DNA of 64,000 nt, taken from NCBI RefSeq assembly GCF_000757885.1, contig NZ_JQCR01000002.1, positions 62,001 through 126,000 on the forward strand, given 5' to 3'. Made by a program: the position numbers and the translations under genes. Below the pieces are notes generated by a model. It searched no databases. It saw only the letters and a list, made by a program, of their open reading frames with translations, and was not told the origin of the DNA. Every line of letters begins with the position of its first letter. Within the stretch, counting starts at the first letter, position 1. This document shows, in pieces, positions 12,404-36,825 of this stretch. The stretch comes from Paenibacillus wynnii (GTDB taxonomy: Bacteria > Bacillota > Bacilli > Paenibacillales > Paenibacillaceae).

Positions 12404-13237
12404 ATGCCCGGTGAGGAAATACAAGCGCTTGAGCGATCAATTGCTGAAATCACGGAGATTGCATCCGGCTTCGGCCTCGATTTTTTCCCAATGCGTTACG
12501 AAATATGTCCTGCAGATATTATTTATACATTTGGTGCCTATGGAATGCCGACCCGTTTTGGACATTGGAGTTTCGGAAAAACTTTTCATAAAATGAAATC
12601 ACAATATGATTTCGGACTAAGTAAAATATACGAACTCGTCATTAACTCCAACCCGTGTTATGCATTCCTGCTGGACGGAAATACACTTATACAAAATAAA
12701 CTGATTGTTGCACACGTTCTGGCTCACTGCGATTTCTTCAAAAATAATGCGCGCTTCTCCATGTCTAACCGGGATATGGTCGAGAGTATGGCAGCTACAG
12801 CTGAGCGGATCGCCGCCTATTCTGTAACCTATGGCACTCAGACTGTAGAGAGCTTTATCGACGCTGTCCTCGCCATACAGGAGCATATTGATCCCAGCCT
12901 CATTAAGCCGCAAAAGTTGGGCAAGGGTCACCTGCTAGAGTTAAAAATGATGGAGCGCAAGGAAGCCTCAAAGGGTACTAAAGCAACGACAAATAATCCA
13001 TACAGCGAGCTGTGGGATCTAGACAAATCTGCAGCTATTAATCCGAATCAAGCGGGCGGTAATATGATCTTCCCCCCAGATCCGGAGAAGGATATGGTTT
13101 GGTTCATCCAGCAATATTCCACCGTATTAGAGGATTGGCAGCGCGACATTATGACGATGCTGCATGATGAGATGCTCTACTTCTGGCCGCAGATGGAGAC
13201 CAAGATCATGAACGAAGGCTGGGCTTCGGTCAGCTAA
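12404..13237 (+). pseudogene. spoVR: spoVR, 5' part (codons 1-275), interrupted by the element
   Basis: SpoVR is a sporulation protein needed for normal spore cortex. The frame starts at ATG 12404 with AAAGGAG ten bases upstream. It matches SpoVR through the conserved MNEGWAS motif and then ends two codons later (V, S, stop) in element sequence. The family is about 465 residues long, while this product is 277. The missing 189 codons are found in frame at 36826-37395. Joining at the shared 17-bp core gives 464 codons. The gene is therefore split, not decayed: no stops or frameshifts are visible in either half. As it stands the truncated product lacks the conserved C-terminal domain and is probably inactive. 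Confidence 0.93.
13212..13228. repeat. Left attachment core (attL) in spoVR
   Basis: The core is ACGAAGGCTGGGCTTCG, identical to 36809-36825. It encodes part of NEGWAS in spoVR. CGAAG and CTTCG form an inverted pair centred on T13220-G13221, which is the likely crossover dinucleotide for a serine recombinase. Confidence 0.9.
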
Positions 13238-13244
13238 GGTGCTT
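13233..13244. repeat. Element-side attachment arm, left
   Basis: GCTAAGGTGCTT is the exact inverted complement of AAGCACCTTAGC at 36794-36805. In the excised circle the two arms would flank the core symmetrically, 24 bp apart, centred on the same TG as the core dyad. Confidence 0.8.
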
Positions 13245-13270
13245 AGAAAAAAGACACCTCTTCAGGTGTC
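13245..13270 (-). terminator. Terminator of the hsd operon
   Basis: On the minus strand GACACCTGAAGAGGTGTC is followed by TTTTTTC. The hairpin overlaps the last codons of hsdS and would also stop leftward transcription entering spoVR. Confidence 0.85.
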
Positions 13271-14569
13271 CTTGACTAAAATGTTCTTAAGTAACTCTAA
13301 TGCACTTTCTTCATTTAAATTATTTGTTCCAAGTTCACTGCGAAAAGCTTTAGACAGAATAGAACTTTCTAAGCGATTAATTTTTTCAGTAAGGTCAATA
13401 CAATTTCTTGTTTTTTCTTCTTTATTTAAGATTAAGTTTAGCATACGGACAATTTCTATTTGTTCTTCTATTTTGGGTAACGGTACAAGCACATTCTTAA
13501 CGTCCTGTTGGTTAATACTTGCTTGATTCACTGCATGCTTTGCGTTTTTTCTAAGTTCTTCAAGTCCTTTGTAAGAATTAAGATATAAAATCAAAAATTC
13601 TGGTATAACCTTATCATTTATTTTTAATCTCATAACATTGCTTTCAAACACAGCGGGTTCAACTAAATTTCTCACCAAAGCCGATTTCCCCAAATATTCA
13701 ATACTATTAACCCTATTTATAATCACATCATTATTATTCAATCCATAAAGGGTTATTTCATTTTCCTCTAACTGTAACCTCTTTAAAGTTTCCCATTCCT
13801 TTATCTCACCGTTATAGAAACTGTCAATCCTAACAATTAATGTCCCTTCCCCATAAGCATCCTTAGCTTTATATAATCCATTTTGAGGACCCTCTTCAAT
13901 TAAATCCCCAAGTTTTTTCTGATCTAAATTGAAGTTCATATTTTTCTGCTCGCGCCAATTTGCCGTCAATTCCCCACGAAAAGCCTTATCCAAAATTGCC
14001 GATCGACGAAGTTCGAATGTTTCTTTGGCTTCTTCAATCATTTGTTTGGCTTGATTGATTTTATGCAATAGTCTTTCGACTTTGTCAGCAATTCGTTTTT
14101 GTTCACTCAGTGGTGGGATAGCTACTTTTTGTTTATAGGCATCCTCTCGATTAAGCCCTGGTATTGCAGTAGATCTATTTAATTTTTTCAAATTTATCGT
14201 TAACAGTAAATAATATAAATACCTATAATGCAATTGTCCCAATGGTTTAACATAATAAGTAGTATCTATTGGCCATCCTGATTCCTCAAACCAACTAACT
14301 TCTCCATGTGATCCTTTTCGACCAACTACTATTACTGGGCCTTCTATTAAGAATTCATCATGAAAGCCTACAATACCATTAGAACCAAAAACAGGGTAAC
14401 CTTCATTACTCCGTTGTGAAGCAGGAAGACTCTTTCCGTAAATAAATTCAGCAATGCTCCCTAAAGTAACCCACATCCAATTCTCTGGCACCTTATAAGG
14501 CTGCTCATCTTCAGGAACTAGCGCCTCTTGCAGCAATTCCTCTGTTGACTTCCCTTTATTCTTGCTCAT
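13262..14569 (-). CDS. hsdS: Type I restriction specificity subunit HsdS
   Basis: This 435-residue subunit sets the DNA target of the type I restriction-modification complex. It has two target-recognition halves, the first opening with WVTLGSIAEFIYGKSLP and the second near KKLGDLIEEGPQNGLYKA. Each is followed by a conserved helical spacer (IPPLSEQKRIADKVERLL and LPKIEEQIEIVRMLN). It overlaps the methyltransferase gene by four bases (ATGA). The complete two-domain layout suggests a working subunit with a bipartite target, which cannot be predicted from sequence alone. Confidence 0.9.
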   Translation of the reverse strand: MSKNKGKSTEELLQEALVPEDEQPYKVPENWMWVTLGSIAEFIYGKSLPASQRSNEGYPVFGSNGIVGFHDEFLIEGPVIVVGRKGSHGEVSWFEESGWPIDTTYYVKPLGQLHYRYLYYLLLTINLKKLNRSTAIPGLNREDAYKQKVAIPPLSEQKRIADKVERLLHKINQAKQMIEEAKETFELRRSAILDKAFRGELTANWREQKNMNFNLDQKKLGDLIEEGPQNGLYKAKDAYGEGTLIVRIDSFYNGEIKEWETLKRLQLEENEITLYGLNNNDVIINRVNSIEYLGKSALVRNLVEPAVFESNVMRLKINDKVIPEFLILYLNSYKGLEELRKNAKHAVNQASINQQDVKNVLVPLPKIEEQIEIVRMLNLILNKEEKTRNCIDLTEKINRLESSILSKAFRSELGTNNLNEESALELLKNILVKDT

Positions 14570-16050
14570 ACATTATACTCTCCACGCACTTCAGCAACCT
14601 GAAATAACTCTTGACGATCTTCAGTGACATACTCAGGCTTATTTTCTACCGCCTTAAGCTCCGCCACAACTTCAAGAAGCAATGTCATTGCCTCATCCAG
14701 CTTCGCAATAGCTTCTTCAGCCGAATCAATCGGGTCAGGCAAATCATCATAAGCAGACAAAGACTCATCCGCAATCAATCCGATATCTAAGCTGTCGTCC
14801 TTCTTACGAATATCCTCACGTGTAAACACGTTAAATCTTTCGTCTTGCACACTATTTCGCTCAGTAGCTGTATAAGCCTCCATAAACGCATCAAAATGAG
14901 CAGTCGTAAAAGGAGTTCGTTTCCCGAATTTAGGCATGTTTGTTCGTAAGTCATACACCCAAACGTCTTTCGTATTGTCCTTATCCGTCTTCTCACGTGT
15001 GAAGAACAAAACATTCGTCTTTACCCCTTGAGCATAAAAAATCCCCGTAGGCAGTCGCAGGATGGTGTGCAGATTACACTTGTTCATCAAGTCCTCGCGA
15101 ATCTTCGCTCCGACTCCACCTTCAAATAATACATTATCAGGAAGAACAACCGCAGCGCGGGCTTTGCCGTTTGCATTTAACGCCCGATAGATATGTTGCA
15201 AGAAGTTCAACTGCTTGTTAGAAGTTGTAAAAGTTAAATCATCACGGGTAAGTCCTTCTCCCCCTTGTTTGGTACCGAACGGAGGATTAGTCAAAATAAC
15301 ATCGAAATTCTTCAAACTTTTTCCTAAATCGGAAAGAGTATCACCTAACATAATATCCCCATGAAGATCATGGAGCATCGCATTCATCATCGCTAAGCGA
15401 TGGGTATCTTTAACTAACTCAACTCCAGTGAAGGCTTCATTTCTTTGAAACTCGGCTTCTTTTTCACTGAGATCAAAATATTCATCAGTCTTACTACGCA
15501 TATGGCTATCAGCAGCAATCATAAATCCAAATGTTCCTGCGGCAGGGTCATTACAGCGTTCGCCTGGCTTGGGATCAACAAGCTTAACAATGACATCGAT
15601 CAATGGACGCGGCGTAAAATATTGCCCCGCACCCGATTTGGTTTCACTCGCATTTTTCTCCAGTAGACCCTCGTAGAGATCCCCAAGTCCTTCTTCTTTC
15701 GCGCTGTACCAGTCTAGCTGATCTATAGATCGCACGATTTTTTCCAGATTCTTAGGTTCATCAATGTTAGATGAGGCGTTCATATAGATCTGTTTGATAA
15801 TCCCGTTACCCTCTTGACCTAATTCAAGCAGCAGTCGGCGATAATGAGTTGTTAGTTCCAAACCGTGCCGTTGCTCTAACGAATCCCAACGATATTGTTC
15901 AGGAATAATTCCCTCATTATCCGTTTCCTTCATCATTTTAAGAAAAAGAAGATAAGTTAATTCTGTTACATATTGGTGATACGTGATTCCATCGTCACGC
16001 AGTACATTACATAAGTTCCAAAGCTTCTGTACGATTTCCTGATTTCTCAT
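14566..16050 (-). CDS. hsdM: Type I DNA methyltransferase HsdM
   Basis: The 494-residue modification subunit transfers a methyl group from S-adenosylmethionine to adenine in the HsdS target. Motif I (DPAAGTFGFM) and the catalytic NPPF motif (LTNPPFGTKQGG) are intact. An N-terminal helical domain precedes them, as usual for N6_N4_Mtase proteins. It starts three bases after the hsdR stop codon and overlaps hsdS by four bases, so all three subunits come from one transcript. Confidence 0.92.
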   Translation of the reverse strand: MRNQEIVQKLWNLCNVLRDDGITYHQYVTELTYLLFLKMMKETDNEGIIPEQYRWDSLEQRHGLELTTHYRRLLLELGQEGNGIIKQIYMNASSNIDEPKNLEKIVRSIDQLDWYSAKEEGLGDLYEGLLEKNASETKSGAGQYFTPRPLIDVIVKLVDPKPGERCNDPAAGTFGFMIAADSHMRSKTDEYFDLSEKEAEFQRNEAFTGVELVKDTHRLAMMNAMLHDLHGDIMLGDTLSDLGKSLKNFDVILTNPPFGTKQGGEGLTRDDLTFTTSNKQLNFLQHIYRALNANGKARAAVVLPDNVLFEGGVGAKIREDLMNKCNLHTILRLPTGIFYAQGVKTNVLFFTREKTDKDNTKDVWVYDLRTNMPKFGKRTPFTTAHFDAFMEAYTATERNSVQDERFNVFTREDIRKKDDSLDIGLIADESLSAYDDLPDPIDSAEEAIAKLDEAMTLLLEVVAELKAVENKPEYVTEDRQELFQVAEVRGEYNV

Positions 16051-36686: not shown

Positions 36687-36793
36687 GCTATCCCCACTAT
36701 CTAGTAATTATTTAATAAAATAATCTTTCGACTTATAATGTCAAAACCCTCCTTTTTCTACTATAATATCACTTTGAAACAGTAAATGTTACC

Positions 36794-36805
36794 AAGCACC
36801 TTAGC
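36794..36805. repeat. Element-side attachment arm, right
   Basis: AAGCACCTTAGC is the exact inverted partner of 13233-13244. It lies three bases before the right core. Confidence 0.8.
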
Positions 36806-36808
36806 AAT

Positions 36809-36825
36809 ACGAAGGCTGGGCTTCG
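36809..36825. repeat. Right attachment core (attR) in spoVR
   Basis: This is the second copy of ACGAAGGCTGGGCTTCG. It is followed in the spoVR frame by TATTGGCATCAGCGG, which restores EGWASYWHQR across the join. The central TG is at 36817-36818. Confidence 0.9.

Follow-up and report, generated by a model that had tools for sequence, protein, structure and literature searches.

The spoVR Locus and Its Island

The 64,000-nucleotide stretch of the Paenibacillus wynnii genome analyzed here (contig NZ_JQCR01000002.1, positions 62,001 to 126,000; hereafter the window) contains the sporulation gene spoVR in two parts, separated by a 23.6-kb island at 13212-36825, as shown in Table 1. The 17-bp core ACGAAGGCTGGGCTTCG is present at both ends of the island; the 5′ half of spoVR opens with an ATG and ends after 275 codons at the first copy, while the 3′ half is resumed in frame after the second and runs to a stop codon at 37393-37395. 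This arrangement had been proposed in a preliminary description of the DNA, and its coordinates and codon counts were confirmed from the sequence. Scripted joining of the halves likewise bore out the proposed rejoined gene, yielding 464 codons with the EGWASYWHQR motif kept and zero internal stops (471 aa when the open frame is measured from stop to stop). A second complete spoVR, named in that description as a finding that would make this copy dispensable, was searched for with the Pfam SpoVR profile across the whole 5.99-Mb genome, and the two halves were the only matches (profile positions 3-270 and 265-405 of 407). Relatives with an uninterrupted gene were also found, the integration site being unbroken in 60 whole spoVR genes of the same genus. 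An assembly artefact was ruled out as the cause of the split, because the same split occurs in 30 other genomes.

Table 1. Coordinates of spoVR, the attachment sites and the island features in the window.
Feature	Position	Strand	Basis
Sigma-E-like promoter of spoVR: TTATAAT, 14 nt, CATATACA	12318..12346	+	Read by eye; assumed consensus
spoVR 5′ half, 275 codons	12404..13228	+	Sequence, Pfam profile, joined frame
attL: host arm, core, element arm ending AAGGTGCTT	13190..13245	+	Element comparison; outer limits approximate
17-bp core, left copy	13212..13228	+	Sequence
Type I restriction-modification operon: HsdS 13262-14569, HsdM 14566-16050, HsdR 16054-19314	13262..19314	-	Family matches
CoiA N-domain protein, cargo	24111..25415	-	Pfam
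Mrr-type nuclease, cargo	25531..26373	-	Family matches
Serine recombinase of pair, 520 aa, girA/girB-like position	27914..29476	-	Family matches
Serine recombinase of pair, 485 aa	29473..30930	-	Family matches
Helix-turn-helix (HTH) regulator	31130..31474	+	Pfam; relatives in most elements compared
80-aa protein, candidate recombination directionality factor	31674..31916	-	Position beside RecC
SpoIIID-like box GAGGACAACC between 80-aa gene and RecC	31958..31967	+	Assumed consensus
Sigma-E-like promoter of RecC: TCGTAAA, 14 nt, CATAGAAT	31974..32002	+	-10 CATA at fixed place in 17/20 elements; assumed consensus
RecC, large serine integrase, 486 aa, predicted to excise island	32033..33493	+	Sequence comparison
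TrlF-family ATPase, 960 aa, cargo	33804..36686	-	Above model cut-off
attR: element arm starting AAGCACCTT, core, host arm	36793..36850	+	Element comparison; outer limits approximate
17-bp core, right copy	36809..36825	+	Sequence
spoVR 3′ half, in frame past core	36826..37395	+	Sequence, Pfam profile, joined frame

No phage structural genes were detected among the island open reading frames (ORFs) scanned (20 with Pfam, 10 with PHROGs), and a prophage identity was rejected on these scans. When the large serine integrase of the island, here called RecC, was compared with 50,697 phage records, all matches were <60% identical and the top-ranked one reached 32.9%; a plasmid search with the 520-aa recombinase returned 166 records, every one at <60% identity.

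Insertion at One spoVR Codon and the Presence of RecC

Genomes were drawn from a genus survey through spoVR (100 genomes), from RecC searches in 394 family and 392 order genomes with overlapping samples, from a RecC scan of named genomes (Paenibacillus selenitireducens, P. tengchongensis, an uncultured Paenibacillus, Bacillus sp. M6-12, Calidifontibacillus oryziterrae and Anaerobacillus arseniciselenatis), and from 397 genomes around the Bacillus strain that were sampled later. Proteins were counted as RecC when untruncated and at least 54% identical, and relatives at ≤38% were left out. Genomes G046 and G067, whose RecC is truncated, stand outside the 33 so counted, and G022, G053 and G062, in which spoVR is fragmented in other ways, were left out of the interpretation.

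A split spoVR was found in 10 of the 100 genomes of the genus survey, the window's genome included. The family, order and named-genome searches gave 21 genomes with untruncated RecC at ≥57% identity, and spoVR is split in every one of them. The later sample contributed 12 more RecC genomes at ≥54%, with spoVR split in 10 (8/8 at ≥62%), which brings the total to 31 of 33 RecC genomes with spoVR split at this place (29/29 at ≥57%). A total of 20 elements were delimited, that of the window among them and none from the 12 later genomes, among which G768 has the left half only and G551, G839 and G911 have their halves on different contigs. G090, in which the locus falls on two contigs and a contig edge interrupts RecC at residue 10, belongs to the 21 genomes and to the nine split genus genomes treated below, but not to the 20 delimited elements.

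The delimited elements span 10.0 to 46.4 kb, and the joined spoVR frame is open in all 20, with G286 lacking the 5′ end of the gene. RecC is present in 20/20, whilst the recombinase pair is present in 15/20, its relatives being mostly 26-38% identical to the pair of the window. The pair was therefore rejected as the specificity factor, since it is optional, being absent from five of the 20 elements at the same site, and the pair at 27914-30930 is probably dispensable here. In the SpoVR tree, split tips are scattered among whole ones, which indicates that the insertion recurs. Two genomes show further signs of repeated insertion: in G286 (L079) another recombinase adjoins the 5′ spoVR half that lacks a start, and G834 carries two spoVR 3′ halves and further fragments. 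In G542 and G620 (L165-L168), RecC relatives of 56% identity lie outside spoVR, that of G620 adjoined by a relative of the 80-aa protein; a target gene of these relatives was looked for and not found.

At the ends of all 20 delimited elements, GGCTGGGC is found on both sides, together with an identical split codon and conserved inverted element arms. On the circle that would form by excision, the arms are symmetric at 15-19 of 21 positions, exceeding the highest of 200 arm shuffles in 20/20 elements, and mean symmetry is 17.8 of 21 for the circle site versus 7.85 for the host site. An inverted-repeat search of each attachment (att) region alone found none, the palindrome being present only on the circle. 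In G436 and G465, both element arms have changed together. The recurrence of the spoVR split and the symmetry of the sites are far beyond chance. At the level of sequence, it is shown for Paenibacillus, Bacillus and other genera that insertion at one spoVR codon goes together with RecC relatives and near-palindromic circle sites.

The Small Divergent Protein and the Promoter Elements

The gene of the 80-aa protein family is divergent from RecC and lies mostly 111-123 bp upstream of it (379 in G058); a member stands beside RecC in 16/16 elements examined, as well as in G430. The alignment of the family holds 13 of the 16 members, with three near-duplicates left out, and three sequences start at a later Met. 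A Pfam scan of the family gave scattered single weak matches only, and a fold search with the predicted model (mean predicted local distance difference test 78, predicted template modelling score 0.49) returned no PDB match at E ≤0.001. Because of its constant place beside RecC, the 80-aa protein appears to be the best candidate for a directionality factor.

Promoter elements were labelled by letters that we take to be the sigma-E and SpoIIID consensus (Table 1). A -10 CATA located 14 nt past a -35-like heptamer was observed 84-92 nt before RecC residue 10 in 17/20 elements, against a background of 11%, and a GGACA box 93-115 nt before the same residue in 16/20, both positions being kept although the elements have otherwise diverged. 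SpoIIID is encoded in the window's own genome. In B. subtilis, spoVR is described as sigma-E-dependent (PMC12456014) and the skin recombinase gene as almost completely SpoIIID-dependent (PMC517825, PMC11736430).

Maintenance of spoVR in Split and Broken Loci

The nine split genus branches carry 35 nonsynonymous to 388 synonymous changes versus 47 to 392 in their whole sisters (p = 0.25), and no decay of spoVR is visible on the split branches. The preliminary description had read the intact halves as a sign of selection; the halves are indeed intact, but they are weaker evidence than was claimed, since insertion has happened repeatedly in the genus, perhaps not long ago.

Broken elements provide better evidence that spoVR is needed than the codon counts do. 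RecC is present in 9/9 genus genomes in which spoVR is split and a whole copy is lacking, and is dead or absent in five of the six with element traces and a whole spoVR. In G046 and G067, RecC lacks residues 1-73 or 1-74, including the conserved RVST motif, and a duplicated spoVR 3′ half, 96-99% identical to the whole gene, lies beside an attR. In G045, G072 and G082, RecC was found neither in the fetched locus nor among the proteins listed in the family search, and 5′ spoVR fragments are kept; no att remnant was seen in G072 and G082. The sixth genome, G094, has RecC and a spare spoVR. The association of a live RecC with the lack of a whole spoVR is significant in the genus (Fisher p = 0.002; by events 0.014); this test was restricted to genus genomes found via spoVR, a wider version (p = 0.0019) being circular for the rows found through RecC.

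Complete spoVR copies were discovered inside the elements of G094, G255, G351 and G465, near the 5′ half. These four spares form one clade with 83-95% mutual identity (Shimodaira-Hasegawa-like approximate likelihood ratio test 99 in a quick tree), although their hosts span two families, and they are 71-77% identical to the closest other sequences listed. In 60/60 whole host genes, the serine codon at the integration site is TCN; in the spares, AGC, AGT, AGT and ACC (threonine) stand at this place. The spares also read FF where 57/60 host genes read YW (one has FW and two were unread by the script). Their att sites differ from the joined site of the window at 8 to 11 of 30 bases. The recoding has the look of an escape from the integrase of the element that carries the spare. 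The split gene of G094 has accumulated 5 nonsynonymous to 15 synonymous changes, whereas the eight remaining branches have 30 to 373 (p = 0.018; one case, compared post hoc), a pattern that would fit relaxed selection in the presence of a spare. G702 has a spare of another, host-like kind, 83% identical to G522. In all, five relatives hold a whole spoVR within the element; excision is thus not the sole solution to the insertion.

Cargo and Neighboring Genes

Cargo from other elements was scanned in sets of 10 chosen proteins. In one such set, five of the ten matched PADLOC models, comprising Lamassu-type proteins in G058, G059 and G092 and JetA in G058. An Mrr-NACHT protein is carried by the element of G522, and that of G430 (L089) harbors metabolic cargo: two molybdopterin oxidase subunits, TctA/TctC transport, an ABC transporter of the branched-chain amino acid type and an amidohydrolase.

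Within the island of the window, a 212-aa cargo ORF in the interval 19440-20474 aligns with only part of its ~350-aa relatives at five other loci and looks truncated. Two small, overlapping ORFs on the forward strand (23398-23751 and 23741-24064) have no Pfam match; their relatives recur in several of the other elements in spoVR, and 11 of 60 fetched genus loci have such relatives, entire or as fragments, immediately upstream of a whole spoVR. They could represent two host genes that were captured together, or else scars left by earlier elements. Outside the window, the same genome encodes a large serine recombinase (L096:13874-15310) on the same contig, ~80 kb upstream of RecC and 37% identical to it over 454 residues.

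Comparison with Known Intervening Elements

A spoVR element (vrin) and a non-phage element of this layout (gin) are both known already. The gin element in gerE of Bacillus cereus ATCC 10987 is described as non-phage, with restriction-modification cargo, a recombinase pair in an operon and a third recombinase apart, a split mother-cell gene, a short shared core, a near-symmetric circle site and an asymmetric host site (PMC5595907), and the island of the window is alike in all of these. The same account reports that gin is excised in sporulation by GirC and the 42-aa factor GirX, not by mitomycin C, and that girAB is dispensable. The island differs from gin in its target and in its candidate factor of ~80 aa, which is divergent from RecC and likened to GirX by layout, not by GirC/GirX sequence. 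All three recombinases are present in the window, the pair together with RecC in 15/20 elements only.

The vrin element in spoVR of Geobacillus thermoglucosidasius C56-YS93 is described with phage-related genes (Abe 2013, cited in PMC4191935). None were seen among the ORFs scanned here, so the island resembles gin rather than vrin or SP-beta, though it is set apart from vrin by description and the two may share an integrase.

The preliminary description had likened the locus to skin (sigK) and SP-beta (spsM). A sporulation gene is split, its halves share a short core and join in frame, and, by association (31/33 RecC genomes split), the element encodes the recombinase for its site. The likeness is also supported by the site architecture, the single copy, the whole spoVR of relatives and the live-RecC association. 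A serine recombinase and in-frame rejoining of a mother-cell gene are shared with both; sigma-E control of the recombinase or directionality factor has its counterpart here in promoter-like elements alone. Unlike the island, skin and SP-beta are a prophage or defective prophage with one recombinase and other target genes. Both gin and skin are experimentally shown precedents (PMC5595907, PMC4191935).

Staphylococcal cassette chromosome (SCC) elements also have paired large serine recombinases (CcrA/CcrB), and Ccr models are matched by RecC (204 bits versus a CcrB cut-off of 900) and by the pair (76 and 59 bits), no cut-off being reached. To our knowledge, SCC elements use a different site, and we know of no developmental excision among them. 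Heterocystous cyanobacteria have the fdxN element, whose XisF model is matched by RecC along its length at 190 bits, below the cut-off of 375 bits. Excision in a terminally differentiating cell, a principle treated in PMC5025042, would be common to both; organism and gene are different. In the literature covered, mostly outside subscription papers, we found neither a non-phage element in spoVR nor a case from Paenibacillus, nor a split gene whose spare is borne by the element.

Discussion

We consider it very probable that this non-phage island is excised by RecC, likely with the 80-aa protein, in the sporulating mother cell, where spoVR would be rejoined. In growing cells, RecC would be silent or integrate only, so that the island stays in place and spoVR is off. 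After asymmetric division, sigma-E, probably with SpoIIID, would turn on RecC and perhaps the 80-aa protein, and would also drive spoVR from its own sigma-E-like promoter, as the promoter elements suggest. By analogy with GirC and GirX, the 80-aa protein may switch RecC from integration (attP x attB) to excision (attL x attR), which would release the circle and restore the whole 464-codon spoVR. The forespore would retain the island, and cargo would be inherited, its loss being confined to the dying mother cell.

Several points weigh against this prediction, in which both excision and its timing are deduced. In the later sample, there are two exceptions, whose RecC relatives are 56% identical and whose spoVR is whole on another contig, and related genomes are non-independent data. 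The codon test has low power, because insertions may be young and part of the branch time precedes them, and G090 also encodes a divergent second SpoVR-family protein. In four of the 21 genomes, RecC and both halves are kept beside a spare, from which it follows that RecC is not kept for spoVR only. No family or fold match was obtained for the 80-aa protein, which went undetected when searched for in G416, G436 and G465, the three elements from which the fixed-place CATA is also absent. Single-sequence promoter scores beat shuffles (p ≤0.05) in 8/20 elements only; two of these eight passes lie at another position and five are near-identical.

The strongest alternative is that of a plain mobile island, in which RecC would serve horizontal transfer only and an inactivated, dispensable spoVR would have intact halves through the recency of the insertion. 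It would account for the recurrence seen in the SpoVR tree and for the RecC kept beside spares, and loss of SpoVR in B. subtilis is reported to lower the heat resistance of spores rather than abolish them (PMC12456014). We regard it as unlikely nonetheless, given that a dead or absent RecC goes with a whole spoVR in the genus, that the duplicated 3′ halves of G046 and G067 point to repair, and that promoter elements of a mother-cell type are held at a fixed place.

Excision by RecC on another signal, such as DNA damage, contact or stress, with joining in sporulation incidental or rare, appears more improbable still. The sigma-E-like elements before RecC speak against it, as does the exit of gin, the closest layout, in sporulation and not by mitomycin C in the available account (PMC5595907), even if the island has an HTH regulator and mobile-element genes and SP-beta is described with both SOS and sporulation routes (PMC4191935). 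A role of the recombinase pair, rather than RecC, in setting the site and excising the island, after the manner of Ccr enzymes in SCC, is hardly credible: the pair is missing from a quarter of the same-site elements, all of which have RecC, and girAB is reported as dispensable in gin (PMC5595907), against which stand the pair's matches to Ccr models, weak and far below cut-offs, and the Ccr behavior discussed in the same source.

Beyond excision by RecC at this locus, we lean slightly toward a wider reading, in which spoVR is a standing dock in Paenibacillus, Bacillus and relatives for non-phage cargo islands that are defined by their integrase and excised in development. Such islands would carry defense genes, in one case catabolism, and would answer the insertion in two ways, by a timely exit from the mother cell or by a recoded spoVR of their own, whose att site would keep the island's integrase from splitting the spare. 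Elements with a dead recombinase and a whole spoVR are natural experiments, and through the recoded spare one can test whether a mobile element insures its host against the insertion that it causes. For switchable recombination, RecC and the 80-aa protein, with their sites, are candidate tools as well. In the literature covered, single strains are named for spoVR, versus the 10 of 100 genomes of the genus sample that contain such islands. If the reading is true, the mother cell would serve as a disposable soma for defense islands, which would be lost from the doomed cell and kept in the spore, and a conserved sporulation gene could be occupied at little cost.

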